DNA from: a virus
IMG/VR virus record: IMGVR_UViG_3300045950_000086
Location: 1 to 34,404 of that record
Strand: one strand, 5' to 3'
DNA: 34,404 nucleotides
Of this stretch, positions 104 to 34,404 are shown piece after piece. The notes under the pieces were generated by a model, which ran no database searches, was not told the DNA's origin, and saw only the letters and a list, made by a program, of their open reading frames with translations. Positions within the stretch are counted from its first letter, which is position 1, and the number at the start of each line of letters is the position of its first letter. A program made the position numbers and the translations under genes.

Positions 104-277
104 TCATCTCTGGATTGGAAAGGACTGGGTGTTGCGTCGGGACGATTTTTCTGGAACCCCGTTGACATCCTTGGCGACGAACCAAGGGTCGCCTTGGATC
201 ATCACCATCCGGACAGAATACGAGGGCTCGAAATCGAAAACGGCAGGCGCAGGCGCGCCTTGGGCTTGAGTGGTCAT
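104..277 (-). pseudogene. Truncated BRO-N antirepressor (Ant) remnant
   Basis: This 57-aa frame starts MTTQAQGAPAPAVF and keeps the first part of a BRO-N domain (PWFVAKDV). It then diverges at about residue 39 and stops. The intact relative at 16703-17476 begins almost identically (MNTQAQGAPAPTVF, PWFCAKDV) and continues for 257 aa, so this copy has lost most of the DNA-binding domain and all of the C-terminal domain. The homology continues upstream into the C4 RNA leader, so a whole C4-ant unit was once here. It lies at the downstream end of the leftward early operon. It is unlikely to work as an antirepressor, though its mRNA could still pair with a C4 RNA. Confidence 0.7.
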
Positions 278-540
278 GATGTGTGCTCCGGTTCGGATTG
301 CGAACCGTCCATCAGTCGCCAAACTGGTGGACGGAACCGAACGGGTTGGCGAACCGGTGGAGCACCGGCAGAGCCTTGCGGCTCTCCCGTCCGGCCCGCC
401 CATAACTGGGCACACACGGACACAAAAAAGCCGCGATGCTTGCGCTTGCGGCTCTTGGCCGCTCCAACTCGGGTCGCCAAACCCGATCCCGACATGCGCC
501 GGGATAGAGACAGAATAGCCACGGCACGGCCCGTTGGCAA
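274..540 (-). CDS. Possible Ash/Icd-like small protein overlapping C4 RNA
   Basis: An 88-aa frame lies upstream of the antirepressor remnant and overlaps its start by four bases (ATGA). This matches the position of the icd-like or ash-like frames upstream of ant in P1 and P4-type elements. The residues around GFFVSVCAQLWAGRTGEPQG resemble the Ash family. The same DNA carries the structured C4 RNA and a terminator hairpin, so the open frame may simply reflect RNA constraint. The frame in phase with ant is also open here. Coding status is uncertain. Confidence 0.3.
   Translation of the reverse strand: MPTGRAVAILSLSRRMSGSGLATRVGAAKSRKRKHRGFFVSVCAQLWAGRTGEPQGSAGAPPVRQPVRFRPPVWRLMDGSQSEPEHTS
300..415 (-). 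ncRNA. c4: C4-type antisense RNA, copy 1
   Basis: Read on the minus strand, this leader has the hallmarks of the C4 RNA of P1/P7-like phages (established family; controls antirepressor synthesis by pairing with ant mRNA). A GAGCC-GCAA-GGCTC hairpin with a GNRA tetraloop (plus-strand 371-384) lies inside a longer GC-rich stem built from GGCCGG and CCGGTT. The segment ending CCACCAGTTTGGCGAC follows. Copy 2 at 16575-16680 has GAGTC-GCAA-GACTC at the same place, a compensatory change that supports the fold. Exact ends are not determinable by eye. Confidence 0.72.
424..453 (-). terminator. Rho-independent hairpin upstream of C4 copy 1
   Basis: On the minus strand, AGCCGC (plus 448-453) pairs with GCGGCT (plus 429-434) and is followed by a T-run (plus A-run 424-429). 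The same hairpin and T-run occur at 16523-16553 before C4 copy 2, so this is a conserved part of the leader. It may attenuate transcription entering the C4-ant unit. Confidence 0.6.
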
Positions 541-542
541 GA

Positions 543-588
543 GTAGCTACAAAAATTCCTTGACCAGCCATATTATTGTAGCTACCAT
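543..588 (+). promoter_or_regulatory. brnTA promoter with paired GTAGCTAC operators
   Basis: TTGACC (560-565), a 17-nt spacer and TACCAT (583-588) form a plausible sigma-70 promoter. The self-complementary octamer GTAGCTAC occurs at 543-550 and again at 578-585, overlapping the -10 box. That is where a BrnA ribbon-helix-helix repressor would bind for autoregulation. The -10 box ends 7 nt before the GTG start codon of brnT, so the transcript would have essentially no leader. Confidence 0.6.
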
Positions 589-595
589 AATCCAC

Positions 596-874
596 GTGAA
601 GATTACCTGCGATCCCAGCAAACGCACCAAAACCCTCGATGACCGTGGGTTGGATTTCGAAGATGCCGTCGAAGTCTTTGCCGGCCCCACCATCGACTTC
701 CCGGACGACCGAAAGGACTACGGCGAAACTCGTATTGTGACGGTGGTTTTTTTGCGCGGACGAATGATGGTCGTGGTCTGGACTCCCCGTGGCGAGGCCC
801 GCCACATCATATCCATGAGGAAAGCCAATGAACGAGAGCAAGCGCGTTTTAGGCAGCGACTTGAAAAAAGTTGA
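596..874 (+). CDS. brnT: BrnT family type II toxin (ribonuclease)
   Basis: A 92-aa protein beginning VKITCDPSKRTKTLDDRGLDFEDAV, the typical N-terminus of BrnT toxins, RelE-fold ribonucleases that cut mRNA and are held inactive by BrnA. It ends in the family-like segment RHIISMRKANEREQARF. The GTG start was chosen because it matches the family N-terminus; the frame is open further upstream, but that DNA is the C4/ash leader of the opposite strand. The gene overlaps brnA by 47 bp, the usual toxin-first order. The module stands rightward against the leftward early operon and may stabilise the prophage or act in defence. No damage is seen. Confidence 0.9.
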   Translation: MKITCDPSKRTKTLDDRGLDFEDAVEVFAGPTIDFPDDRKDYGETRIVTVVFLRGRMMVVVWTPRGEARHIISMRKANEREQARFRQRLEKS

Positions 875-1166
875 CGCCCATGTCATCCAGTCGGAGGAAT
901 ACGAGGAAATTCCCGAATTGACGGACGAATGGTTCGAAAAGGCAACGCCCATGATCGGGGGCGAGCCTGTTTCTAGCGAAGAATGGAAGTCCGCGGCGCG
1001 GAAAGAGATGCGGCGCGGCCGGCCGAAAGCCCGGACTCGCAAGGTATTGCTGTCGGTGCGATATAGCCCGGAAGTCGTGGAATACTTCCGCGCCACGGGC
1101 GAAGGTTGGCAAGCTCGCATGGACGAAGCTTTGAAAGAGTGGATCAAGGCGCATCCTCCGGCTTAA
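828..1166 (+). CDS. brnA: BrnA family antitoxin
   Basis: A 112-aa antitoxin. An acidic N-terminal half (EEYEEIPELTDEWFEKATPM) should wrap the toxin. A basic linker (RRGRPKARTRK, about residues 62-73) precedes a C-terminal ribbon-helix-helix (KVLLSVRYSPEVVEYFRATGEGWQARMDEALKEWI) that would bind DNA and dimerise. BrnA proteins neutralise BrnT and repress their own operon, and the paired GTAGCTAC octamers upstream are the likely target. Its last 23 bp overlap the end of the methyltransferase remnant on the other strand. Confidence 0.9.
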   Translation: MNESKRVLGSDLKKVDAHVIQSEEYEEIPELTDEWFEKATPMIGGEPVSSEEWKSAARKEMRRGRPKARTRKVLLSVRYSPEVVEYFRATGEGWQARMDEALKEWIKAHPPA

Positions 1167-7180: not shown

Positions 7181-8071
7181 CTACGCGGCTTTCTGGAGCA
7201 ATGTTTCGGCGGCGTGCCCTGCGGAATAGAAACCACGAACGGAGAGGCCGCGAGCGCTGGCCTCGAGGATCAGTTCATCCAGGACGTCTCTGGCTGTTTC
7301 GTGCTGTTTCTGGCTATACAGCAAGTCGGATTCCTGCGTCAGCAGCACGAACAGCATGGCGGATTCGCTTTCTGCTGCGTTGAGTGTTTGTTCGAGCACC
7401 CAGAGTTTTTGGCGCGAAGCGTTGATCCGGTTCATGGCGATGTCGGGCCGGATCACTTCGAAGTGCGCCGATATCGCGGGCGACAGGAACCCGAGATGGA
7501 CTGGCAGGCCCTTCTGGTAAAGTGACAGGGAAACCCCGAAAGCGCCTTCGAGTCCTGGCTTGACCGCCGTGACCCGATCTTTCACGGCGTCCTGCCAGCG
7601 GGCCGCCAAGCCGCGATTATCGGCCGCTTCTTCCTCGTCATCCGCTGCATCGACGTCGGCCAGGCTGGCGAGGCTTGCCGTCAGCAGCAGGCCCTGTTTG
7701 ATGGCGCCCTTCAAATCGTCGGCCAAGAACGGCCGTTCCTGCCCCAGCAGGAAGCCCGACAGCGGCGCGTCCCATGCCGACAGGGGGCCGCCTTGCGCGA
7801 GATGGGCCGCCAGGGATTCCGCCGCCAAAGCGATCAGCCCCATCACGTTGTCGCCATATTTGCCATACAACGCGCGCGCCGTGTCTTTCCGCAGGCAGAC
7901 GAAGACTTCCGATTCCCCGGTTTCGGCGCGTGCCGCGATGGCGACGGCCAGCCGTTCGCCGCCGCCCGCCATGGGTTCCCAGGCAAGCGGCGCCCAGGTT
8001 CCGCGCAGGGCGGGCGGCTGCGGCAGGGTCAGTCCCAACGCATGGAGTAGCGGGTCAGGCGAAAAGGTCAT
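7181..8071 (-). CDS. Uncharacterised 296-aa partner of HipA-like kinase
   Basis: I do not recognise a family. The protein is soluble, with an N-terminal alpha/beta part (RLAVAIAARAETGESEVFVCLRKDTARALYGKYG). An acidic linker (ADVDAADDEEEAADN, about residues 137-152) follows. The C-terminal part is helical and contains LQKGLPVHLGFLSP-like and TQESDLLYSQKQHETARDVLDELI segments. Its start overlaps the kinase stop by 17 bp, and the kinase overlaps the repressor stop, so the three form one repressor-driven operon expressed in the lysogen. Such positions typically carry superinfection exclusion or anti-phage genes. It may be the substrate, regulator or effector of the kinase (inference). Confidence 0.7.
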   Translation of the reverse strand: MTFSPDPLLHALGLTLPQPPALRGTWAPLAWEPMAGGGERLAVAIAARAETGESEVFVCLRKDTARALYGKYGDNVMGLIALAAESLAAHLAQGGPLSAWDAPLSGFLLGQERPFLADDLKGAIKQGLLLTASLASLADVDAADDEEEAADNRGLAARWQDAVKDRVTAVKPGLEGAFGVSLSLYQKGLPVHLGFLSPAISAHFEVIRPDIAMNRINASRQKLWVLEQTLNAAESESAMLFVLLTQESDLLYSQKQHETARDVLDELILEASARGLSVRGFYSAGHAAETLLQKAA

Positions 8072-8753
8072 GGTTGTCGCTGGGTAGTCGCTGGCTGATC
8101 AGGTCAGCCAGGAGTTTATTCCGCGCGATCAAAAAATTCATCAGGCCGGGGATTTCCGAATAACCGCACAATGGCGCGACAGCCTGTTCCAGGCGGTCTT
8201 CCGTCCATGCGGGCGCCAATTCGGCCAGCGCCCGCCCCAGCCGCCGGCGCCCCACCTCATCGAGCGTGCGCGCCAGCTGCATCAGTTGGTTGTCGGCCAT
8301 GGGGGCGGTAAGGGCCTGATCGTGGTCGATGAGCCAGAACCCGGCGCCTCCGTCGTGCAGGATATTGCCGGGGTGGCGGTCGGCATTGGCGATCCATTCG
8401 TCGAACAGCCCGGCTGCTGCGAACGACCGCCATTGCAGCAGGCGGCGCCGCAATGTCTCGGAGTCGATGTGTCGCAGGTGGCGCGTCAGGTTGGGGTGTT
8501 CGATATCGACTGATCCGAACAGCGCTTCTTGCGTTTCCGCGTGGATGACGATGAGGGGCTCGGGGATCGGCAGAGACAAGGCGCGGCCGAGCAGCGCGCA
8601 AAGCATTTCGGTCAGGAAGGCCTGGCGCGGCAGATGCTTGCAGACGGCGACGACATCGCCGGCGGCCGTTCTGACCACGCCGCGCACGGCTTGATTGATT
8701 CCTTCACTCAGCTGGCAGCCGCCAGGCAGCAATACGCCACAGCGCAGACTCAT
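8055..8753 (-). CDS. HipA-like protein kinase
   Basis: A 232-aa kinase-like protein. Lysine 39 (VVAVCKHL) and Glu49 (FLTEML) fit the nucleotide-binding Lys-Glu pair. The catalytic loop is NADRHPGN (Asp125, Asn130), and IDHD (Asp143/Asp145) is the metal-binding motif. This matches the compact HipA-like kinase group, shorter than HipA toxins (about 440 aa) and without a HipB-like partner. The ATG overlaps the stop of the CI-like repressor (ATGA). Expression with the repressor suggests a lysogen-maintained role such as abortive infection or exclusion, or control of the 296-aa downstream protein. The substrate is unknown. Confidence 0.8.
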   Translation of the reverse strand: MSLRCGVLLPGGCQLSEGINQAVRGVVRTAAGDVVAVCKHLPRQAFLTEMLCALLGRALSLPIPEPLIVIHAETQEALFGSVDIEHPNLTRHLRHIDSETLRRRLLQWRSFAAAGLFDEWIANADRHPGNILHDGGAGFWLIDHDQALTAPMADNQLMQLARTLDEVGRRRLGRALAELAPAWTEDRLEQAVAPLCGYSEIPGLMNFLIARNKLLADLISQRLPSDNHDLFA

Positions 8754-9163
8754 TTACGCCCCATTTTGTCGATGAGCTCCTGGATGAATTTCAGGTTGTC
8801 CTCCGAAAGCAGTCCCTGCGCCGATTTGTTCATCATGTCCTCGACCAGGCCCCGGGTCGCCGGGGATAGGCTGTTCCAGAATTCGGCGTCTACGACCGGT
8901 GGGTGGGATTCCACGCCGCCCGCCGCCCGCCCCTCCCCGGCGTGGTCGTGGTCGAGCCAGCCGGGCGGGAGCTTGAGCTTTTCTTCAATGTCCCTGGCCA
9001 CCTCTTCCCCGATATTCCGCCGATCCACATCTCCATCGGCGAGCATGCGCGATACGTTCGGAGGCGGGCGTCCTATCGCTCGCGCGAGGGCCGCTTTGTT
9101 CCCGGCAAAGCGATCCATCAGAAGCTTCTCAAGATTCTGACGTCGCAGTGATTTTGTACCCAT
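8750..9163 (-). CDS. CI-like phage repressor
   Basis: A 137-aa protein with an N-terminal helix-turn-helix (LLMDRFAGNKAALARAIGRPPPNVSRMLADG, about residues 13-43) and a helical C-terminus that could dimerise. There is no LexA-type protease domain, so induction would not be by self-cleavage; the BRO-N antirepressor at 16703 fits that gap. The start at 9163 lies inside the operator palindrome 9157-9170. A -10 box TTTAAT (plus 9170-9175) ends 6 nt before it, so the mRNA would be leaderless, as lambda cI is from PRM. A longer in-frame start exists upstream but would cross the promoter region. Confidence 0.78.
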   Translation of the reverse strand: MGTKSLRRQNLEKLLMDRFAGNKAALARAIGRPPPNVSRMLADGDVDRRNIGEEVARDIEEKLKLPPGWLDHDHAGEGRAAGGVESHPPVVDAEFWNSLSPATRGLVEDMMNKSAQGLLSEDNLKFIQELIDKMGRK

Positions 9164-9242
9164 GCGGGTATTAAATCCTGGCGCATCGGCATTGGGAATT
9201 CTCGTTTTGGGTATTGCCAGTGCGTACCCTATGGGGTAATGT
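9157..9242. promoter_or_regulatory. Divergent switch region: PRM/PR with two operators (OR-like)
   Basis: TACCCATGCGGGTA (9157-9170) covers the repressor start. TACCCTATGGGGTA (9225-9238) overlaps the -10 of the rightward promoter (TTGCCA 9214-9219, 17-nt spacer, TAATGT 9237-9242). A half-site GGGTA at 9209-9213 lies between. The leftward repressor promoter has TTTAAT (plus 9170-9175) with a weak -35 (TTCCCA on the minus strand). Both start codons lie 6-7 nt from their -10 boxes. Confidence 0.72.
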
Positions 9243-9249
9243 TTTGCGC

Positions 9250-9501
9250 ATGAACCTAAAAACATATCTCAGGATCCTCTCAGTCGATCGAAGGGAAGAT
9301 TTCGCCAGGCACTGCAATTGCACGTTGCAACACCTGAAGTTCGTCGCATATGGGGCAAAACGTTGCTCCCCCGACCTCGCCCTCGCCATCGAGCGCGAGA
9401 GCGGCGGGGCGGTGACGGTGGCGGACCTGCGGCCGGAGTTCGCCGAGACGCTGAAATCGGCCGGGTACGTCCGCATCCCGCCCAAGGATCAGGCCGCATG
9501 A
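9250..9501 (+). CDS. Cro/YdaS-like DNA-binding protein
   Basis: An 83-aa protein resembling YdaS/Cro-type regulators. The N-terminus MNLKTYLRILSVDRREDFARHCNCTLQHLKFVAYGAKRCSPDLALAIERESGGAVTVADLRPE reads as a degenerate helix-turn-helix followed by the CSPDLALAIE...G.VT..DLRP block typical of YdaS. It is the first gene of the rightward early operon, divergent from the CI-like repressor. It should compete for the TACCC-type operators and favour the lytic path. Its stop overlaps the next start (ATGA). Confidence 0.8.
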   Translation: MNLKTYLRILSVDRREDFARHCNCTLQHLKFVAYGAKRCSPDLALAIERESGGAVTVADLRPEFAETLKSAGYVRIPPKDQAA

Positions 9502-10563: not shown

Positions 10564-12794
10564 TGTCGACCGTCGTGCCATTCAACCCGCCGCATCCCGC
10601 CACGCCGGCCGAGTACGCTCGGCGCTACGCCGAGATCGGCTGGCATGTTCTCCCTCTATGGTGGGTGCGGGAGGATGGCCAATGCGCCTGCGGTAATCCG
10701 AAATGCGAGCACCAGGGCAAGCACCCGCTGGGCATACTGGCTCGCCGCGGGCAGGATTCGGCGACCACGGACGCCACCGTCATCGGGCGCTGGTGGCGGC
10801 AGTACCCCAAGGCCAACATCGGCATTTCGCTGCACGCCTCCGGGCTGTGCGCGGTGGATGTCGATCCGCGCAACGGCGGCGATATCACGCTGGAGCAGGT
10901 CGAGGCCAAATACGGCAAACTGTTGTCGGATGTCGAGGCGATCACGGGCGGCGGCGGCCGGCATATCGTGTTCAGCGCGCCGGCTGGCCTGCAAAGCTTG
11001 CCGGGCAAGCTGGGGCCCGGCATCGATCTCAAGCTTAACGGCTACATCGCCGTCGAGCCCTCCAATCACGTCAGCGGCAATACCTATGAGTGGGAGGGAT
11101 CAAGCTCCCCCCTGGATGGCTGCGCCCCGGCGCCGCTGCCGGACTGGCTGCGCGGACTGGCTCCCGCCGAAGTGCGGGCGCGCACTGGCGAGGCATTTTT
11201 CCGGGCGGCGGACGGCTCCGTCATCGATGACCTGAGGGAGGCCTTGGCGTTCGTCGACGCCGACGATTATCACCAATGGACGCACACCGGCATGGCGCTC
11301 TGCGAGCTGGGGCGCGCCGGGTTCGATCTGTGGGACGAGTACAGCCAGCGGAGCCCGAAATACGACTACCGGGCATGCGTGGTGAAGTGGAAGTCGTACC
11401 GGCCCGGCGATGGCTTGCACTACGAATCCGTGTTCGCCTGGGCGCAAGAGGCGGGGTGGATCAATGCGGGCAGGCCAATTCCGCAAGAGGCCGATATCGA
11501 CCTGGGTGATGCCGAGCCGGCACGGCCATCGCCGCTCCCCGCCCATGCCCCCAAACGGCCTACCATCGAAAGCCCGCCGGAGGAGCTGCTGTCTCCCCCT
11601 GGATTGCTGGGCGATGTGTGCGCGTGGATCAATTCGACGGCGCGCAAGCATCAGCCGGCGCTCGCCCTGGCCAATGCCATCGCGGCCCTGGGGGCGGTGG
11701 TCGGGCGCAAGATCGAATCCGAGACGGAGCTGCGCACCAACTTCTACACCATCGGCGTATCGGAGTCGGGCACCGGGAAAGAACACTCCCGCAAGGCGAT
11801 CAAGAAGCTGTTCGAGGCGGCCGGATTGTTCCACTTGTTGCAAGAGGAAATTGGCTCTGATTCAGGTCTGGAGGACCGGCTTTACAATCACGCATCCACG
11901 CTATTCCAGATCGATGAGATCAGCCACAAGCTGACCGCCATGCGCGGCAAGAACGCCAGCGCTTACCTGGCAAAAATCCCAGCGCTGCTGATGACGCTGT
12001 TCGGGTCGGCCAATGTCTCCCACCCATGCAAAACCCTGTCAGGATCGGAGCCGCGAGTGCTGATACAGCCGAATTGCTGCATCTACGGCACCAGCGTCCC
12101 CGGTGATTTTTTCTCCTCGCTGTCATCGGCTGAGGTGGGTAACGGGTTTCTCGGGCGCTGCTTGATATTTGCCGGAAACGAAGATCCGCGAACGCAAAAA
12201 ACCAGGATGGGCGCACCGCCCCCCGAACTTGTGGAACGACTGGTATGGGCCTATCGAATCGCTACAGAACACCCCGAAGCAGGCGCCGACATCAAACAGC
12301 CGAAGCCGGTTTTGATCACAAAAACACCATGCGCCCAGGCCCTGTTCGATGAGCTTGAGTCGAGACAGAACAAGCACCGTTTAGCCTCTCAATCCAGCGA
12401 AGAAAAGAGCTTGTGGGCTCGCGTTTGGGAGCATGCCGACAAACTGGCTCTGCTAGCCGGCGCTCTGCACAACGGCAATGTTGATGAACGAATTGCTCAG
12501 TGGGCCATCGATCTAGCCTGGCATTGCACGTCGACGATGGCCCAGGCTGCGGCTGATTACATCGCCGACACCCAGGCCGAGGATTACATCAAGCGGGCAT
12601 CCAGGGTGCTGAGGCAGCACGGCCGCATGACCTGCAGCCAGTTCACGATCAAAACCCAGTTCATGAAGATGAACGAGCGGCGCGAGGTGCTGGCGACGCT
12701 GGTCCAAATGGGACACATCGCGCAGACGCCTGGAACCGGCAAAGGCGCAGACAAGCAGCCCTCGTTTCTGGAGTGGATCGGCGAAAAATCATGA
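10563..12794 (+). CDS. PrimPol-helicase replication protein
   Basis: A 743-aa bifunctional primase-polymerase/helicase. Residues 15-200 form a PrimPol domain with a CACGNPKCEHQGKHP cluster (41-55), catalytic Asp99/Asp101 (CAVDVDPRNGG) and GGGGRHIVFS (130-138). A PriCT-2-like segment spans about 222-302. The C-terminal half is DUF3987-like, with Walker A SESGTGKEHS (400-409) and Walker B LFQIDEIS (447-454). It should prime and unwind at the phage origin, probably the iteron region that begins at its own stop codon. DNA from about 11820 to 12560 looks lower in GC than the first half, hinting at a recombinant gene. Confidence 0.87.
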   Translation: MSTVVPFNPPHPATPAEYARRYAEIGWHVLPLWWVREDGQCACGNPKCEHQGKHPLGILARRGQDSATTDATVIGRWWRQYPKANIGISLHASGLCAVDVDPRNGGDITLEQVEAKYGKLLSDVEAITGGGGRHIVFSAPAGLQSLPGKLGPGIDLKLNGYIAVEPSNHVSGNTYEWEGSSSPLDGCAPAPLPDWLRGLAPAEVRARTGEAFFRAADGSVIDDLREALAFVDADDYHQWTHTGMALCELGRAGFDLWDEYSQRSPKYDYRACVVKWKSYRPGDGLHYESVFAWAQEAGWINAGRPIPQEADIDLGDAEPARPSPLPAHAPKRPTIESPPEELLSPPGLLGDVCAWINSTARKHQPALALANAIAALGAVVGRKIESETELRTNFYTIGVSESGTGKEHSRKAIKKLFEAAGLFHLLQEEIGSDSGLEDRLYNHASTLFQIDEISHKLTAMRGKNASAYLAKIPALLMTLFGSANVSHPCKTLSGSEPRVLIQPNCCIYGTSVPGDFFSSLSSAEVGNGFLGRCLIFAGNEDPRTQKTRMGAPPPELVERLVWAYRIATEHPEAGADIKQPKPVLITKTPCAQALFDELESRQNKHRLASQSSEEKSLWARVWEHADKLALLAGALHNGNVDERIAQWAIDLAWHCTSTMAQAAADYIADTQAEDYIKRASRVLRQHGRMTCSQFTIKTQFMKMNERREVLATLVQMGHIAQTPGTGKGADKQPSFLEWIGEKS

Positions 12795-13049
12795 AATTCA
12801 TGAAATTCACATGAAATTCAAGCGGCATTTTTGAATTTCATGGAGGTTTGGCGATTGATTTACAACAAGTTTTTATGAAATTCATGAAATTCAAGGCCCC
12901 CTATAGATACCTAGGAAGGGGTAGCTGTAGGGGTATCTATAGGAATTTCATGAATTTTATATATTTTATTATATATATCAATAACTTATGATTTATAAAA
13001 TTCAATTTTGACACTTGAATTTTATAGGAATTTCATGAATTTCATAAAT
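12791..13049. other. AT-rich iteron region, probable phage replication origin
   Basis: The interval to the next gene is strikingly AT-rich. Exact copies of the 10-mer ATGAAATTCA lie at 12791, 12800, 12811, 12875 and 12884. Exact reverse copies lie at 12832-12841 and 13036-13045. One-mismatch copies occur at about 12942, 12951, 12995, 13016 and 13027. A very AT-rich core (12950-13000) holds almost only A and T. A 12-bp inverted repeat (12900-12911/12932-12943) sits in the middle. Iterons, an unwinding element and a dyad next to the primase gene are the usual parts of a phage origin. Function is inferred. Confidence 0.7.
12900..12943. repeat. 12-bp perfect inverted repeat within the origin region
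   Basis: CCTATAGATACC (12900-12911) and GGTATCTATAGG (12932-12943) are perfect complements separated by a 20-bp loop that includes GGGGTAGCTGTAGG. It lacks a following T-run, so it is not a standard terminator. It could form a cruciform or hairpin used for primase loading or protein binding. Confidence 0.75.
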
Positions 13050-13069
13050 TGGCACAGGAGGGGGGGTTC

Positions 13070-16574: not shown

Positions 16575-16680
16575 CATGGGCGGCCGGGCGGGGAGAGTCG
16601 CAAGACTCGCCGGTTGCTCTACCCGGTCTACCAATCCCCGTTCGGTCGCTCACCAGTTTGGTAGCTGGTGTGCGGTTCGT
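16575..16680 (+). ncRNA. c4: C4-type antisense RNA, copy 2
   Basis: GGCCGGG (16582-16588) pairs with CCCGGTC (16622-16628) around a GAGTC-GCAA-GACTC hairpin (16595-16608). The CACCAGTTTGGTAGCTGGTG segment follows before ant. This is the plan of the C4 RNA of P1/P7 and related prophages, where the RNA pairs with the ant leader and blocks its translation. Copy 1 shows compensatory substitutions in the tetraloop stem. The RNA would be processed from the same transcript as ant. Confidence 0.75.
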
Positions 16681-16702
16681 AAATTCGAACGTAGAGCACA
16701 TC

Positions 16703-17476
16703 ATGAACACTCAAGCCCAAGGCGCGCCTGCGCCAACCGTATTTCAATTCCAGCCATTCACCATTCGCGTCGTCGCCGACGAAAACGGAAACCCTTGGTT
16801 TTGCGCCAAAGACGTTTGCGGCATCCTGGGCTATACCAACGATAGTAAGGCCATCAAGGATCACTGCAAATCAGATGGGGTAACGAATCGTTACCCCATC
16901 ATCGATACCCTTGGACGGCAACAATTTCCTGCCTTCATCAATGAAGGCAACCTCTACCGACTCATCATCAAGAGCCGCAAACCGGAAGCCGAAAAGTTCG
17001 AAAGTTGGGTCTGTGATGAAGTCCTCCCCGCCATCCGCAAAACCGGCCGCTACGTCCACCGGGAGGCCCGGCCCGCCGCCGCCCCCTTGGGCGATGCCGC
17101 GCAATGGGTGGTGCGGGAGTACACGCAGAGCCTCGGGCGCTACCTGAACCGATCCACCCAGCAGATCAGCCCGCGGCTGCACGCCCATCTGCGCGCCCGG
17201 TTCGGCGTCGGCAACGTGCGCGACATCCCGGCGGACCGGCTCGACGAGCTGCTGAACGTCCTGGAGCAGTTCCACGACCAGGCCTACGGGCTGTGGTGGG
17301 TGTGCCTGAACCTGGAGCTGGCCTTGCTGCAAACCCTGCACGTCGCCGCGTATGAGACGCGGACGGAGCTGCCGCCCGCCGTGAGGGAGGCCATGACGGC
17401 CTGCGCCCTCCCCGGCGACAAGGGCGGCGCGGCCGAAGCCATCCGCCAGGGCGTGCTGCAACGCTTGAGACGATGA
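16703..17476 (+). CDS. ant: BRO-N domain antirepressor
   Basis: A 257-aa protein. Residues 15-110 are a BRO-N DNA-binding domain (IRVVADENGNPWFCAKDVCGILGYTNDSKAIKDHCK ... FINEGNLYRLIIKSRKPEAEKFESWVCDEVLPAIRKTGRY). A linker and a C-terminal domain (ISPRLHAHLRARFGVGNVRDIPADRLDELLNVLEQF) of the kind found in phage antirepressors follow. Such proteins inactivate the resident repressor and trigger lytic growth, and are silenced by C4 RNA. The gene sits within the late region rather than next to the switch. Its stop overlaps the start of the MuF head gene (ATGA), so it could be co-translated with a structural gene. Confidence 0.85.
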   Translation: MNTQAQGAPAPTVFQFQPFTIRVVADENGNPWFCAKDVCGILGYTNDSKAIKDHCKSDGVTNRYPIIDTLGRQQFPAFINEGNLYRLIIKSRKPEAEKFESWVCDEVLPAIRKTGRYVHREARPAAAPLGDAAQWVVREYTQSLGRYLNRSTQQISPRLHAHLRARFGVGNVRDIPADRLDELLNVLEQFHDQAYGLWWVCLNLELALLQTLHVAAYETRTELPPAVREAMTACALPGDKGGAAEAIRQGVLQRLRR

Positions 17477-20012: not shown

Positions 20013-20444
20013 TCAGACCTCGCGTTGCAGTTGGCGGAGGATGCGTTCGAAATGGCGCGGTGCGGCCTCGGCGGCTCGCTTCATGTAGGGGTCGCCCTGA
20101 TAGCCCGGATGCCGGACAAAGCGAGCGAAGACGAACTGGTTGCCGCCGACCCAGCGCAGCGCCTTCTTGGTTTTAGGCCGGATCGCGTGCGGCTTGGCGC
20201 CGCGCATAACGAACTCGGCGTAGGGCGCGCGCCGCTCGTCGTGGTCGATGAGGTAGCCCACGGCGGACTTCTTGATGCGCACCGACTGGAACAGGGCGCC
20301 GGTCTTGGTGTGGGCGTCGGCGCCCCCCTGGACGTCATCGAACACGGCCTGGGCGAGCCGCGCCGCCGCCTTGGGGCCGGCCGCGCCCAGCCGCTTAAAG
20401 CCCTCGTGGATGACTTCGACGCCATCGATGCGGAGGATGAGCAC
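20013..20444 (-). CDS. HK97 gp10-like head-tail joining/tail completion protein
   Basis: A 143-aa protein with the gp10-like layout. An N-terminal helix (FKRLGAAGPKAAARLAQAVFDDV) leads to the recurrent TKTGALFQSVRIKK block. YLIDHDERRAPYAEFVMRGAKPHAIRPKTKKALRW and a C-terminal PGYQGDPYMKRAAEAAPRHFERILRQL follow. Such proteins join head and tail in siphoviruses. It belongs to the compact leftward block with the portal. Confidence 0.8.
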   Translation of the reverse strand: MLILRIDGVEVIHEGFKRLGAAGPKAAARLAQAVFDDVQGGADAHTKTGALFQSVRIKKSAVGYLIDHDERRAPYAEFVMRGAKPHAIRPKTKKALRWVGGNQFVFARFVRHPGYQGDPYMKRAAEAAPRHFERILRQLQREV

Positions 20445-20450
20445 AGCGGC

Positions 20451-20924
20451 TCACCCGCCCGCGCCGAGGGTGCAGTAGATCGTCCCCGCGCCGGCTTGGG
20501 CGATGACGGCGAGATGGGTATGGGGCTGGCCGATGTCGATGCTGCGCCAGAGCATCGCTTCGCTGTGGGGCAGGACCGGATAGTCCGGAATCTGGGCCAC
20601 CACCTCGGCGTCGCCCAAGCGGACGAACGCCAGAAAATCGCTAGGGTTATGGATTTTCAGCGCTTCCATGTAGGCCGCCGGCGGGGGGAATTCGATCCGG
20701 GCGCTGATGTCGGAGAACGGCGCCGCCACGGTGCCGCCGAACGGAAAGAAGTGCCGCTTTTTCGTCCAGAACGAATAGCCTTCGCTGACCGTAACGTCGG
20801 TCAGGACGACCATGACTTCGCCCCTAGGGGTGATGGCTACCTCCCCGTAGCCGCCGGCGTCATCTTTCCCGGCGATGCGCACGATGCGGCGGTCGTCCCT
20901 GAGGCGTTTGCTGATGGTGGTCAT
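20451..20924 (-). CDS. Hypothetical structural protein following the portal
   Basis: A 157-aa, beta-rich protein (ITPRGEVMVVLTDVTVSEGYSFWTKKRHFFPFGGTVAAPFSDISARIEFPPPAAYMEALKIHNPSDFLAFVRLGD...). Its ATG overlaps the portal stop (ATGA), so it is co-translated with the portal. The content suggests a virion-surface, decoration or connector component, but no family is recognised. Confidence 0.5.
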   Translation of the reverse strand: MTTISKRLRDDRRIVRIAGKDDAGGYGEVAITPRGEVMVVLTDVTVSEGYSFWTKKRHFFPFGGTVAAPFSDISARIEFPPPAAYMEALKIHNPSDFLAFVRLGDAEVVAQIPDYPVLPHSEAMLWRSIDIGQPHTHLAVIAQAGAGTIYCTLGAGG

Positions 20925-22267
20925 GGGTTGGCTCCTTTCTGCAAAGTGGGCTCATCGATGGCCGCGATTATCGCGTCCATGGTTTCGGCTTCGGCCGTGG
21001 CGAACTGGAGGCCGACCACGGCCTTCATTCCTTCCCGGATCACGGCGTCCGGGAAGCCGGCGGCCTGCATCTGCTGCAGCACCGTCAGTTCCTGGCCGAC
21101 GTCCGCCAGCTCGAAGGACTTGGGCCAGACGCTTTCCGTGCGGTTCTGGATACTCAGCCAGCGGCAGGCCAGGTCCCACATCCGGCGCTCCAGGTCTTCC
21201 ATGCGGCGGGCGAAGCGGGCGAGCGCGGAATTCAGCTCCTGGAAGCGGATGGTCAGGGCGATGCCGGATTCGGCCTGCGTCGGCTGCTCGACGGTCATGG
21301 CGATGCGGCGGATGGCCTCTTCCAGGCCGGCGATCACCTCGTTGTAGATCGTCGCCGGCCCGTCCGGCGGGGCGATGAAGGCCGGGGTGTCGCCGTTGTG
21401 GATCAGCATGTTGCTGACGCCGACCGTCTCGGTCACGGCGACCAGGTCCGCCGGCGGCGCTTCCGGCGGAATCTGGTAGGTCAGCAGGGAGAAGGTCTGG
21501 CCGCGCAGAATCTCGTCGCGCTCGGAAGCCGCATTGAAGTAGCGCCGCGAGAGGACGGCGATCTGCTCGAAATCCCCGTAATCGGGAAAGCTGCCCGACT
21601 CGGTGAAGGCCAGCACCGGGCACAGCCCTAAGCCGTGAATTCCTGACTCCAGCACCTCGCCGGTCTCGCCGGGGCGCTGCACCCGCCATTCCGCCGTGTC
21701 CCACACCCGCCAGACGTCGATCGTCTGGCCCTGGTATTGCGCCGTGCTGGCGATGGCGACGCTTTCGAACAGCCCCTGGACGTTGAGCGTGTAATCGACC
21801 ACCCGTTCCGGCGGGATCGGCGCCAGGTAGGGAAAGGCCCGCTGTTCGATCTGGGAGGCGCGGTCCGGGGGCACGGCCTGGGGCATGTCCACCAGCAGCA
21901 GCATGGAGCCCCTGGCCTTGGTTTCGACCGCGAAGGTGGACCAGAACACGTCCAGGCTGTTGCCCTGCCAGTCGCAGTCGTCGGAGAGCGCGGTGAGCAA
22001 GGGATGATCGAGCGCGCGCCGGGGCGGCTTCTTCGCCAGATAGCCGGCGAAGCGGACGCAGGCCGGTTTCAGGAAATTCCGGTACCAGGCCACCTCGTTG
22101 CGGCGGGCGAACTTCTCCGCCGACTCCCGCGGATAGCGCACCAGGAAGGAGGGGCCGGACAGCTTCGGGTTCAGCCCCTCCCGGTCGATCCAGACCTTGG
22201 GCCGGAAGCCGCCGGAGCCATCGAGCGCATGGGCGATGAACTGGTAGCGCGCAGTGTCCGGAACCAT
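20921..22267 (-). CDS. Portal protein (DUF4055-like)
   Basis: A 448-aa protein. The N-terminus (FRPKVWIDREGLNPKLSGPSFLVRYPRESAEKFARRNEVAWYRNFLKPACVRFAGYLAKKPPRR) is typical of DUF4055 phage portals. A helical stem and C-terminal part (FQELNSALARFARRMEDLERRMWDLACRWL) follow. It forms the dodecameric vertex through which the terminase packages DNA. It is the first gene of a leftward block, while terminase, scaffold and capsid genes are rightward, so it needs its own promoter. The start codon lies directly after the right arm of a 21-bp inverted repeat and has no recognisable ribosome-binding site. Confidence 0.82.
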   Translation of the reverse strand: MVPDTARYQFIAHALDGSGGFRPKVWIDREGLNPKLSGPSFLVRYPRESAEKFARRNEVAWYRNFLKPACVRFAGYLAKKPPRRALDHPLLTALSDDCDWQGNSLDVFWSTFAVETKARGSMLLLVDMPQAVPPDRASQIEQRAFPYLAPIPPERVVDYTLNVQGLFESVAIASTAQYQGQTIDVWRVWDTAEWRVQRPGETGEVLESGIHGLGLCPVLAFTESGSFPDYGDFEQIAVLSRRYFNAASERDEILRGQTFSLLTYQIPPEAPPADLVAVTETVGVSNMLIHNGDTPAFIAPPDGPATIYNEVIAGLEEAIRRIAMTVEQPTQAESGIALTIRFQELNSALARFARRMEDLERRMWDLACRWLSIQNRTESVWPKSFELADVGQELTVLQQMQAAGFPDAVIREGMKAVVGLQFATAEAETMDAIIAAIDEPTLQKGANP

Positions 22268-22327
22268 GTTGACATACTACATGTTGTGTGTAGCATTATG
22301 GTTAGTCACAACATGTAGTATGTCAAC
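22268..22327. repeat. 21-bp perfect inverted repeat with facing TTGACA boxes
   Basis: The left arm (22268-22288, beginning GTTGACATACTACATG) and the right arm (22307-22327) are exact complements separated by an 18-bp AT-rich loop (22289-22306). Each arm carries a consensus -35 hexamer TTGACA pointing into the loop. On the plus strand TAGCAT (22291-22296) is a possible -10 at 16 nt; on the minus strand TAACCA or CATAAT are weaker choices. It stands between the divergent portal and scaffold genes and is much more AT-rich than its surroundings. It is probably a divergent promoter under a dyad-binding regulator. Confidence 0.7.
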
Positions 22328-22346: not shown

Positions 22347-23039
22347 ATGGACATCGACAAGCTGAAAGACAAGCTCGGCGCCGAGTTCGATCCCATCAAG
22401 CACTACATCGACGATCTGATCGGGCAGCGCGACGCCGCCCGCAAGGAGTCCATCGACGGCCGCAAGGCGCTCAAGACCGAAGTCGAACAACTGCGGACCT
22501 TGAAGGCCCACCTGTTCGAGAAGCTGGGGCTGGACCCGGACGCCGATCCGGCGGACCTGCCGGACGTAAAAGGTCAGGCCGAGGCCGCCAGGCAGTTCGA
22601 GGCCCGCGTGAAGCGGCTCGAACGCGAACTGGCGGACAAATCCAAGGCCCTGGATGAGGCCACGGCGCGGCACCGGCAGTTGCGGCAACAGGCCGGCATC
22701 ACCAAGGCGCTGACCGCGCACGAGTTCATCGACCGCGAGCTGGTCGAGAGCTTTGTTTCGAACCGCGTCGACTGGGAGGACGACATCCCGTTCTACCGGA
22801 CCGACGACGGCAAGCGCGTGCCACTGGACGAAGGCGTGAAGCTGATCGCCAGCACCCGGCCGCATCTGTTGAAAGCCCAGGGGGCGGGAGGCTCCGGGTA
22901 TCACGCGGGCAACGGCGGACGGGCGGTCAACCCCTGGGCGAAAGAGACGCTCAACCTGACCGAACAAGGCCGGCTGCTCCGCGACAACCCGCAGCAGGCC
23001 CAGCAGTTGATGGCCGCGGCGGGCGTGAAACCGACCTGA
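22347..23039 (+). CDS. Capsid scaffold protein
   Basis: A 230-aa, highly charged, coiled-coil protein (MDIDKLKDKLGAEFDPIKHYIDDLIGQRDAARKESIDGRKALKTEVEQLR ... QFEARVKRLERELADKSKALDEATARHRQLRQQAG). A Gly-rich segment and helical tail follow. Position just before the major capsid gene, length and coiled coil fit a phage scaffolding protein. The ATG at 22347 was chosen over the in-frame ATG at 22320, which lies inside the inverted repeat; a GGAAAAAGA site precedes it. Confidence 0.75.
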   Translation: MDIDKLKDKLGAEFDPIKHYIDDLIGQRDAARKESIDGRKALKTEVEQLRTLKAHLFEKLGLDPDADPADLPDVKGQAEAARQFEARVKRLERELADKSKALDEATARHRQLRQQAGITKALTAHEFIDRELVESFVSNRVDWEDDIPFYRTDDGKRVPLDEGVKLIASTRPHLLKAQGAGGSGYHAGNGGRAVNPWAKETLNLTEQGRLLRDNPQQAQQLMAAAGVKPT

Positions 23040-23059: not shown

Positions 23060-24040
23060 ATGGCGGAAACCCGTATCGCGGACGTCATCGTCCCGGAAAT
23101 CTTTCAACCCTACGTCATCCAGCGCACGGCCGAGCTGTCGGCCCTGTGGGCCGCCGGCATCGTGGCGGCGGACCCCCGCGTCATCCCAGGCCCCCGCGCC
23201 GGCGGCGAGACCGTGAACATGCCGTACTGGAACGACCTGGACGGCGATGCCGAGGAGCTGTCCGACCAGAAGCCGCTGAGCGTCAACAACATCGGCACCG
23301 GCCAGGACGTGTCGGTCGTGCAGGCGCTGGGCAAGGCGTTCGGCGCCAATGATCTGGCCTACACCCTGGCGGGCGACGATCCGATGCGCGCCATCGGCGA
23401 TCTGTTCGCGCAGTGGTGGGTGCGGCAGATGCAGAAGCGGTTGCTGGGGGTGCTCAAGGGCGCGTTCTCGGCCGGCAACATGGCCGGCAACATCCTGGAC
23501 ATCTCGGGCAGTACGAATAGCGCCGCGACGGTGATCGAGAAGACCAGTTTCGCCGACGCCGCCTTCCTCTTGGGCGACGCCTCCGCCGGGCTCACCGCCG
23601 TGGCGATGCACTCGGCCACCTACACCAAGCTGTACAAGGACGACCTGCTCGACACCGAGAAGGGCGCGGATGGCGCCACCTTCGCCAGCTACCAGGGCAA
23701 GCGGGTCATCATCGACGACGGGCTCCCGGTGGAAGCGGGCGGCGTCTACACCACCTATCTGTTCGGCCCCGGCGCCATCGCCTACGCCGAAGGCTCGCCC
23801 AAGACGCCGGTGGAGAACGACCGCCACAGCCTGGGCGGCTACGACGTGCTCATCAACCGCCGCCATTTCGTGCTGCACCCGCGCGGCGTCAAGTGGATCG
23901 GCGCCGCCGCGATCTCCGCCGGCGATGCGCTCGGCGGCCATCCGACCCTGGCGGAGACCGCCGACGGCGCCAACTGGACCCGCGTCTACGAGCCCAAGGC
24001 GATCCGCATGGTCGCCTTCAAGCACAAGCTGGCGGAGTGA
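23060..24040 (+). CDS. Major capsid protein
   Basis: A 326-aa protein with the plan of Gp13/HK97-fold coat proteins. It opens ADVIVPEIFQPYVIQRTAELSALWAAGIVAADP, followed by ETVNMPYWNDLDGDAEELSDQKPLSVNNIGTGQDVSVVQALGKAF. VAMHSATYTKLYKDDLL, IDDGLPVEAGGVYTTYLFGPGAIAYAEG and a C-terminal HPRGVKWIG complete it. It forms the prohead shell with the scaffold encoded 20 bp upstream. No separate protease gene is visible nearby. Confidence 0.9.
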   Translation: MAETRIADVIVPEIFQPYVIQRTAELSALWAAGIVAADPRVIPGPRAGGETVNMPYWNDLDGDAEELSDQKPLSVNNIGTGQDVSVVQALGKAFGANDLAYTLAGDDPMRAIGDLFAQWWVRQMQKRLLGVLKGAFSAGNMAGNILDISGSTNSAATVIEKTSFADAAFLLGDASAGLTAVAMHSATYTKLYKDDLLDTEKGADGATFASYQGKRVIIDDGLPVEAGGVYTTYLFGPGAIAYAEGSPKTPVENDRHSLGGYDVLINRRHFVLHPRGVKWIGAAAISAGDALGGHPTLAETADGANWTRVYEPKAIRMVAFKHKLAE

Positions 24041-32033: not shown

Positions 32034-34404
32034 ATGGCCTATACGCCGTCGCCCTCCTTCGATTTCGCCGCGGCGGCCTACACGCCGGGGACGGCCTTCG
32101 ACTTCGACGCGCAAACCGGCGAAATCTATTCGCTCACGGCTCAGCTCGAGCAGCGCGTCTTCGGGGTCTACGGCCTGGCGGCGCCCATCGCCCAGCCGAT
32201 CCATGTCACAGGGAGTCTCGAAGCGCCGATCGAGCAGCCGGTATTCACCGCCTACGGCCTGCCGGCGGCCATCCGCAGCGAGGTTTACGAGCATTTCGGC
32301 CTCTCGGCCGGCATCACCCAGGAAATCGGGGTATTCGATCTCTACACCCTGGCTGCGCCGATTGCCCAGGCGGTATTTGGCGTTCACGGCATCGCCGGCG
32401 GGATAGAACAGCCGATCTATGTCACAGGAAGTCTCGAAGCGCCGATCGAGCAGCCGGTATTCACCGCCTACGGCCTGCCGGCGGCCATCCGCAGCGAGGT
32501 TTACGGGCATTTCGGCCTCTCGGCCGGCATCACCCAGATACAGTTCGTTCCCTACGCCATCCCTGCCGCCGCCATCGAGCAGCGCATCCGGGCGGAGCCC
32601 TACACGCTCCAGGCCCCCGTCACCCACCGGGTCATGGCCGTATACACGCTGTCCGCGGCCCTGGATCAGACGGTCACCGATCCGGTGTTCGACCTGGACG
32701 CCCCGCTTGAGCAGGCCGTCTATGCGTTCCTCGCGAACCTCAATGCCCAAATCAGCCAGACCCAATACGACGCCCAGGTCGTCGGCGGCGGGGCGTACAT
32801 CGGCCAATCCCAGACCGCCAGCAACGACATCACAACCTGGGCGGTCAAGGCCGTCATCGGCAACGCCATCGGCGACGGCGAGCCGATCCCGCCGGCTCAC
32901 GGCGTCGTCCTGGGCGAGCTGCTGGGCCGGATGACCGGCGTCCTGACCGTGGACGGCGAGGAAGGCGCGGCCCGGATCGCCGAGTTCACCGTGCTGCCGG
33001 CGCCGGGATCGGGGCCGATCCACATCCATACCCTGACCGGACTGCCGGTCACCCTGTTGCTGGTGATCAGAGGCATGGAATTGCCGATCTTCCAGGGCCT
33101 CCTGGATGTGCCCGGCTGGGACCCGGTGCAGGGCCTGCTCCATCTCTCCTGCACCGACAATCTGCAAAGCCGCTTCGGCGGGCTCAAGCGCAAGGAGATC
33201 GCCAGGATCATCGGCGGGCGCTGGTCCCCCTATTTGTTCGACGCCAAGGCCGACGAGTGGCAGTACGTGCAGGACCGGCTGTCGACGCTGCCGGTCAGCT
33301 ACGACCTGGACCTCAACCTGCAAGGCCAGATCACGCCCTGGCGAGCCAAGGCGAACGCCGATTTCACCTTCCGCCCCGACGCGATCATCGAAAACAGCGT
33401 CCGCATCGACATGGCCTCGGCCCGCCAACTGGTCAATTCGATCGACGTCAACATGGACTACCGCTACGAACGGCTGATGCAGCGCGAGCACACCTACCAC
33501 TGGGAGCTGAGCATCGACCAGATCATGGAGGGCAGCACCGCGCCGACCCCGGAAACCATCATGCAGGCCGTCAACGGCACCGGCTGGGCGGTGCTGGCGG
33601 AGAACGGAATCCCTAGGCTCCGGATGACGCCCTTGCCGGACCCCCAATGGCTGCGCGGCGTCATGTACCTGTCCGACTGCCCGCGCTACAGCCTGGCGGC
33701 CGGGCTGTTCGTGACCCTGGCGCAGCGCTGGACCCAGACCGTGACCGAGCAATGGCATATCACCGTCGACGCGCCGGACTCGATCCGGGTGATCGGCAAG
33801 CGCCATGCCGCCACCACCGCCAACTTCGACGCCCAGAGCGGCAAGGACCCGCGCTACGAGCATTGGGACCGGACCACCGAAAAGGCGATCCAGCTCACCC
33901 TCCACGACGGCGCGCCGCGCGGCGGCTATGCCTGCGACTCGTGGATTCCCTACCACCCGCTCCAAGTCCGGCTCCACACCGTGCCGGTCCCTGCCGGGGC
34001 GCGGCGCTTTCCCACCCAGGACCCCATCGCCAACCCCTTGGGCGATCTGTACTACGACCTCGACGACGGCGCCGCCGACGGCCGGGCCGGCCTCTCCAAC
34101 GCCTACATGACCGGGATCGAGCGGGCGCGGCGGGACATCCTGGCCTCCCACCGCCAGACCACTGTGATCTTCGACACCCTGATCGCGCCCCTGATCGACC
34201 GCACCCACACCGTGCGCCTGGTATCGCCCCGGCTGACCGCGAAAGGCAAGGTGCGCCGGGTAACCCATACCGTCGATTTCGACCGGGGCGCGGCCCTCAC
34301 CACCCTGGCCCTGGCGGTGTCGAAGTCCTACGGCGTCGGCCTGGCCGATGCGGGTTTCGATTTCCCGGCCCCGGCCAAGCCCCCGGCCACCCAGGCGGCG
34401 CGCC
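32034..34404 (+). CDS. Large tail-tip protein with N-terminal short repeats (partial)
   Basis: Begins at ATG 32034 and is open to the window end (790 codons). The first 240 residues are about 15 tandem copies of a 13-16 residue motif (G/T-L-x-A-x-I-E/x-Q-x-V-F/Y-x-x-Y), including a 72-residue exact-type duplication. A hub-like part then follows (VVLGELLGRMTGVLTVDGEEGAARIAEFTV, FQGLLDVPGWDPVQGLLHLSCTDNLQSRF, SVRIDMASARQLVNSIDVNMDYRYERL), suggestive of a gp27/baseplate-hub-like tail protein. It follows the LamG gene by 3 bp. The C-terminus lies outside. Function as tail tip or host-contact protein is inferred. Confidence 0.7.
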   Translation, partial: MAYTPSPSFDFAAAAYTPGTAFDFDAQTGEIYSLTAQLEQRVFGVYGLAAPIAQPIHVTGSLEAPIEQPVFTAYGLPAAIRSEVYEHFGLSAGITQEIGVFDLYTLAAPIAQAVFGVHGIAGGIEQPIYVTGSLEAPIEQPVFTAYGLPAAIRSEVYGHFGLSAGITQIQFVPYAIPAAAIEQRIRAEPYTLQAPVTHRVMAVYTLSAALDQTVTDPVFDLDAPLEQAVYAFLANLNAQISQTQYDAQVVGGGAYIGQSQTASNDITTWAVKAVIGNAIGDGEPIPPAHGVVLGELLGRMTGVLTVDGEEGAARIAEFTVLPAPGSGPIHIHTLTGLPVTLLLVIRGMELPIFQGLLDVPGWDPVQGLLHLSCTDNLQSRFGGLKRKEIARIIGGRWSPYLFDAKADEWQYVQDRLSTLPVSYDLDLNLQGQITPWRAKANADFTFRPDAIIENSVRIDMASARQLVNSIDVNMDYRYERLMQREHTYHWELSIDQIMEGSTAPTPETIMQAVNGTGWAVLAENGIPRLRMTPLPDPQWLRGVMYLSDCPRYSLAAGLFVTLAQRWTQTVTEQWHITVDAPDSIRVIGKRHAATTANFDAQSGKDPRYEHWDRTTEKAIQLTLHDGAPRGGYACDSWIPYHPLQVRLHTVPVPAGARRFPTQDPIANPLGDLYYDLDDGAADGRAGLSNAYMTGIERARRDILASHRQTTVIFDTLIAPLIDRTHTVRLVSPRLTAKGKVRRVTHTVDFDRGAALTTLALAVSKSYGVGLADAGFDFPAPAKPPATQAAR
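32203..32537. repeat. 119-bp direct repeat with 216-bp period inside the tail gene
   Basis: The segment 32203-32321 recurs at 32419-32537 with about two substitutions (GGGAG/GGAAG near the start; TACGAGCAT/TACGGGCAT). The intervening 97 bp carries other repeat units of the same protein motif. The near-identity at DNA level means a recent in-frame duplication of 72 codons. Confidence 0.88.

Follow-up and report, generated by a model that had tools for sequence, protein, structure and literature searches.

Introduction

NrdR is a bacterial repressor of ribonucleotide reductase (RNR) genes that senses dATP and ATP (PMC9110341; PMC12051234). Its tetramer binds only with dATP and ATP and then blocks polymerase (PMC9110341); binding needs two boxes that lie an integer number of helical turns apart, and the DNA is kinked by ~90 degrees at each box (PMC9110341; PMC12051234). 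The 16-bp boxes of RNR operons are those of Rodionov and Gelfand (2005), as cited in PMC12051234. A published expression for the box pair, C.[AT].A[AT].[AT].G with a core spacer of 20-23 bp, corresponds to the common box distance of 14-17 bp (PMC12051234). NrdR can also act as an activator, as at topA of P. aeruginosa, which has a single box (PMC4409342). During lytic infection of pneumococcus by SpSL1, host operons with NrdR boxes are induced far more strongly than any other host genes (PMC6755750). Here we describe an NrdR-type box pair that lies between the structural operons of a phage, and we propose how it might be used.

Results

An NrdR box pair inside a perfect inverted repeat

The window, by which we mean the whole stretch of DNA analysed, is a 34,404-bp IMG/VR viral contig of 65% GC, and the 60-bp dyad at 22268-22327 has a GC content of 37%. 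Its left arm, GTTGACATACTACATGTTGTG (22268-22288), and right arm, CACAACATGTAGTATGTCAAC (22307-22327), are exact reverse complements that flank an 18-bp loop, TGTAGCATTATGGTTAGT. A TTGACA motif lies at 22269-22274 on the plus strand and another at 22321-22326 on the minus strand, both pointing inward. Exact comparison of the arms and the positions of these motifs thus bear out the 21-bp arms, 18-bp loop and inward TTGACA of the original prediction, and the divergent structural neighbours that it named are likewise present, with a portal gene (phrog_145, minus strand) and a scaffold gene (phrog_206, plus strand) on either side (Table 1). The dyad is the longest perfect inverted repeat with a short loop in the window, where base composition predicts ~2.6e-6 perfect repeats with arms of at least 21 bp and loops of 3-60 bp. 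The dyad 20-mer has no further copy anywhere in the contig, and a search of other viral contigs for the exact 20-mer found none.

Each arm contains a 16-bp palindrome, and the two 10-bp cores, CTACATGTTG and CAACATGTAG, both fit the published expression. The gap from box to box is 16 bp and the core spacer is 22 bp, which falls in the canonical 20-23 class. The pair expression has one match in the window, readable on either strand because the site is palindromic, against 0.15 expected. As controls, the regions upstream of E. coli nrdHIEF and nrdDG match the expression, and that of nrdAB does not under the strict form. At the level of sequence it is nearly certain that the dyad represents a box pair of the canonical NrdR type, and we do not read its symmetry as a recombination scar. 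A chance repeat was rejected on the two expectations given above. An intrinsic terminator was also rejected: the dyad lies between two gene 5' ends, and a terminator scan, which looks for a GC-rich hairpin followed by a T run, did not pick it out.

Table 1. Coordinates of the dyad, its predicted elements and the genes of the two flanking operons.
Feature	Position	Strand	Remarks
Perfect 21-bp inverted repeat with 18-bp loop	22268-22327		NrdR box pair and both inward -35 boxes lie within
NrdR box 1, ATACTACATGTTGTGT	22274-22289		Published 10-bp core CTACATGTTG at 22277-22286; regular expression of PMC12051234; kept in L003, L005, L076 and L100
NrdR box 2, TCACAACATGTAGTAT	22306-22321		Core CAACATGTAG at 22309-22318; regular expression of PMC12051234; kept in relatives
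Predicted rightward promoter (scaffold/capsid operon)	22269-22296	+	TTGACA-16-TAGCAT; consensus scan
Possible leftward promoter (portal operon)	22298-22326	-	TTGACA-17-AACCAT, weak -10; by sequence
Portal protein gene	20921-22267	-	phrog_145, E 6e-48; start codon abuts left arm; first gene of leftward operon
Leftward operon gene, 157 aa	20451-20924	-	No function assigned
Leftward operon, tail completion/neck protein	20013-20444	-	phrog_5; kept in relatives
Leftward operon, small conserved gene, 99 aa	19709-20008	-	Kept in relatives
Leftward operon, small conserved gene, 124 aa	19330-19704	-	Kept in relatives
Head scaffolding protein gene	22347-23039	+	phrog_206, E 4e-17; first gene of rightward operon
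Major head protein gene	23060-24040	+	phrog_247, E 3e-106; PF20036; second gene of rightward operon

Predicted promoters and genomic setting

The predicted rightward promoter has 10 of 12 consensus matches, with 0.1 such sites expected in shuffles, and box 1 sits between its -35 and -10 elements, so that the predicted RNA polymerase site is overlapped. The consensus scan gave no match for the leftward promoter; only the rightward one scores well. Box 2 falls inside the possible leftward promoter. The bidirectional late promoter with a dyad-binding regulator that had been suggested for this site fits these findings, with NrdR as the named regulator; the leftward -10 is weak.

A tblastn search detected no RNR homologue in the window, and the dyad is not upstream of an RNR gene. 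Portal and scaffold neighbours without an RNR make an RNR operator less likely; they do not lower the case for an NrdR binding site. The phage may be temperate, given its repressor-like gene (8750-9265) and two antirepressor genes.

Several other features of the window deserve mention. Two Bro-N/antirepressor-like genes lie in opposite orientation (16703-17476, plus strand; 104-1147, minus strand) with inverted similarity between 225-329 and 16651-16755 (77%), and one such gene is inserted between the terminase and a MuF-like head gene. A segment at 12786-13050, between the primase and terminase small-subunit genes, is AT-rich and holds many ATGAAATTCATGAAATTC repeats in both orientations; it is a candidate replication origin or operator array. 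A tandem duplication of 202 bp (32120-32321 and 32336-32537) is 82% identical.

The same junction in related phages

Relatives were gathered with the portal, scaffold and head proteins as queries. The divergent portal/scaffold order occurs in ~40 loci, comprising viral contigs and contigs of metagenome-assembled genomes (MAGs) assigned to Methylomicrobium, Contendobacter, Nitrosomonas and Comamonadaceae; a Thiobacillus MAG contig (L077) has the portal only. Most relatives with the inverted order have neither the repeat nor NrdR boxes, and other lineages carry a promoter-like sequence without boxes at this junction. Because most relatives with the divergent junction do without the boxes, NrdR control is not essential to the architecture.

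Four further diverged lineages do have the pair between portal and scaffold: L003 (the same as L004), L005, L076 (in a Methylomicrobium MAG) and L100, with portals 46%, 58%, 54% and 61% identical to that of the window, respectively. L100 was found by DNA pattern alone, in the blind scan of viral contigs for the strict pair described below. The core spacer of 22 bp (box distance 16 bp) is identical in all five; the expression match gives it in the window, L003, L005 and L076, and the L100 junction was extracted with it. When the five are aligned on the dyad, the two 10-bp cores have invariant bases at fixed places and stand exactly 22 bp apart. Identity between lineages is 71-77% across the boxes with their flanking bases, 32% in the spacer and 27-29% in the outer flanks. 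Shuffling of the five junctions yields a pair with a P of 0.0004-0.003 per junction. In the portal tree a single branch (support 92/96) separates the five lineages from the rest; the scaffold tree neither groups nor resolves them.

The arms pair at 20 of 22 positions in the window and at 10-16 of 22 in the relatives. The original prediction had pointed to the 21-bp arms as the element to follow into relatives; what is kept there is the boxes and their spacing, and neither the perfect symmetry, which only the window has, nor the exact 20-mer. The -35 boxes are not conserved either, whereas neither the NrdR columns nor the spacer length of 22 bp varies.

Regulation seems to cluster at the portal/scaffold junction, with different solutions in different lineages. 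In another lineage (L048, L049, L050, L054, L058, L061 and L075), divergent junctions of ~400 bp (for example L048:3748 onward) contain a small gene of ~100 aa ending in TWTGRGIKPRWL, a motif that suggests a silencer of the H-NS family. As a separate observation, the large terminase gene of L003 (7379-9580, minus strand) appears to have an intein-like insert (CISEGTLIETKIGLVPIEDIKSGDYVLT ... VHNC), overlapped by a possible homing endonuclease frame (7518-8165).

Box pairs in other viral contigs

A strict form of the pair, ACWAYATRTWGT, 20 bp, ACWAYATRTWGT, occurs in at least 120 viral contigs, with 103 distinct sequences. Bases beyond the search pattern fit the 16-bp NrdR box, with C or T at position 0 in 91% and A or G at position 13 in 96%. 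Long open frames hold 7% of the pairs, compared with 67% of positions drawn at random from those contigs. Half-sites placed 5 bp closer, and so half a helical turn out of phase, occur in 12 contigs as against at least 120 in phase, and those 12 matches are mutually similar within a narrow GC range. The 12 viral contigs (L235-L246, 32-37% GC), alike in sequence and with NrdR-type half-sites 15 bp apart, possibly represent a variant NrdR or another regulator.

An RNR recognizable with E. coli queries is present in 7 of the at least 120 loci, not always adjacent to the pair. Among the matches listed, many pairs stand before or next to genes for structure or packaging, in phages that are unrelated to one another: HK97-type portals (L084, L133 and L137, and L190 by sequence cluster), N4-type portals (phrog_1216; L176, with L150 and L167 in its cluster), the terminase small subunit (the L113 group, L156), the terminase large subunit (L147, L177, L115, L119, L094), a scaffold (L100), genes directly ahead of the major head protein (L083, L086) and head-tail adaptors (L114, L152). 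Other neighbours are methyltransferases, repressors, ERF, NAMPT and genes without an assigned function. An apparent excess of late genes among these loci is probably real. Pairs also lie beside nicotinamide phosphoribosyltransferase (NAMPT; L097:5186-7133), a lysis gene and a CI-like repressor gene (L112 and L173 being among these loci), so that the phage targets of NrdR would not be late genes alone. No convincing pair was found at the portal or connector genes of the isolated phages Pylas, FSL SP-076, Biscayne, TPWB-05 and Piluca, and the SpSL1 genome has loose pair matches at chance level only, none of them convincing.

NrdR in the hosts of relatives

A TIGR00244 search found NrdR encoded in all six tested host MAGs of relatives. 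None of 16 viral records checked, several of them fragments, has an NrdR gene, and on this count we rejected a phage-encoded NrdR as the binder. The Methylomicrobium genome that holds prophage L076 (G001) encodes NrdR and has, before its own class II RNR gene, a pair with a spacer equal to that of L076; host gene and prophage thus offer similar sites to one repressor. The same genome has a second NrdR (C159:9360-9797) that scores below the first, perhaps through contamination or as a mobile copy. Among 274 gammaproteobacterial genomes, the strict pair occurs in the L076 carrier and in none of the other 273.

Discussion

We propose that the dyad is an operator for host NrdR laid over a compact bidirectional late promoter, and that its release as dATP is drained would time both structural operons; we regard this reading as likely. 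The box pair, its canonical spacing and its conservation in five lineages are observed directly, as are NrdR in the hosts of relatives and its absence from the viral records checked. From these we infer that NrdR binds the dyad and represses both promoters, and that dNTP depletion sets the timing. NrdR loaded with dATP and ATP would bind as a single tetramer to both boxes, which are separated by three helical turns, kink the DNA and shut RNA polymerase out of both promoters. One bound tetramer would close both, since the rightward promoter contains box 1 and the possible leftward promoter contains box 2. Phage replication would then lower dATP relative to ATP, NrdR would let go, and the leftward portal operon would be switched on together with the rightward operon for scaffold and major head protein, so that capsid building would follow DNA synthesis. 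The timing model needs infection alone to be able to relieve NrdR; that it can is indicated by the induction of NrdR-boxed host operons by SpSL1, a phage without a convincing pair.

The same pairs could act in other ways. As decoys on many replicating genomes, they would titrate host NrdR, free the host RNR genes and raise dNTPs, with control of the neighbouring genes secondary. Derepression of host RNR would benefit a phage, and the pairs are close to consensus, in a strict form that is rare in the gammaproteobacterial genomes. A decoy, however, needs no promoter and no fixed position, yet five lineages have the pair at one and the same divergent junction, almost all pairs lie between genes, and SpSL1 induces NrdR-boxed host operons with no convincing pair of its own; we consider this explanation unlikely. 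It is also conceivable that NrdR chiefly silences the structural promoter in the prophage and has no role in lytic timing. The location of L076 within a bacterial MAG contig and the repressor-like and antirepressor genes of the window fit such a role, which is compatible with the data and overlaps the timing model, but pairs also precede N4-type portals (L176, phrog_1216) in relatives of isolated Schitoviridae. Schitoviridae are mostly lytic, and we hold silencing in the prophage alone to be quite improbable.

Plain sigma-70 transcription in both directions, from a promoter of unusual symmetry whose -10 regions overlap and which has no regulator, would account for TTGACA on both sides and for the good rightward -10, and would agree with the promoter-like junctions without boxes in other lineages. 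It does not account for relatives that keep the NrdR columns and spacer but not the -35 boxes, nor does it predict a 10-bp core at a 32-bp centre-to-centre phase in unrelated phages, which makes it very unlikely. The original prediction had also raised a recombination site left behind when the portal block inverted, which would make the dyad a scar or a target of site-specific recombination. In the related phages L006, L007 and L012 the neck, scaffold and head genes share one strand, from which we conclude that the block changed orientation in the past, probably once and long ago. The inverted arrangement is old, and most of its ~40 loci have no repeat, which argues against a scar; the contig has no second copy, whether at the far end of the block or anywhere else, and the arm symmetry is not kept. 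An inversion scar is contradicted, and we give it almost no weight.

Returning to timed release of a host NrdR operator, it is possible, and we suggest this more tentatively than we do for the window, that host NrdR serves many unrelated phages as a general checkpoint between replication and assembly, at which late promoters would open on dATP drawdown without a phage late regulator. NrdR has been described as an RNR-specific repressor; if phages use it on packaging and capsid promoters, it becomes a phage-relevant regulator as well. Phages would, if this is true, read the host's gauge of DNA precursors to time assembly, which would give a simple and testable answer to how late genes are timed in phages with no obvious late activator, and a DNA signature with which such promoters could be found in metagenomes.

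Our searches of mostly open-access literature turned up no paper that places NrdR boxes on the structural genes of phages. The closest described system is the NrdR operator of bacterial RNR operons (PMC9110341; PMC12051234), which shares with the dyad two palindromic boxes 16 bp apart, a centre-to-centre distance of about three helical turns, overlap with a promoter and a match to the published expression. The dyad differs in its putative targets, which are phage portal, scaffold and capsid genes, in its position between divergent operons and in the extension of its arms to a perfect 21-bp repeat that includes both -35 boxes. Like topA of P. aeruginosa (PMC4409342), it would be an NrdR target outside ribonucleotide reduction, but topA is chromosomal, has a single box and is activated rather than repressed. 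SpSL1 infection (PMC6755750) likewise ties lytic growth to the loss of NrdR repression, although the genes induced there are the host's and SpSL1 itself has no convincing pair. In the phage dyad, an operator of known type would serve targets of a new class.
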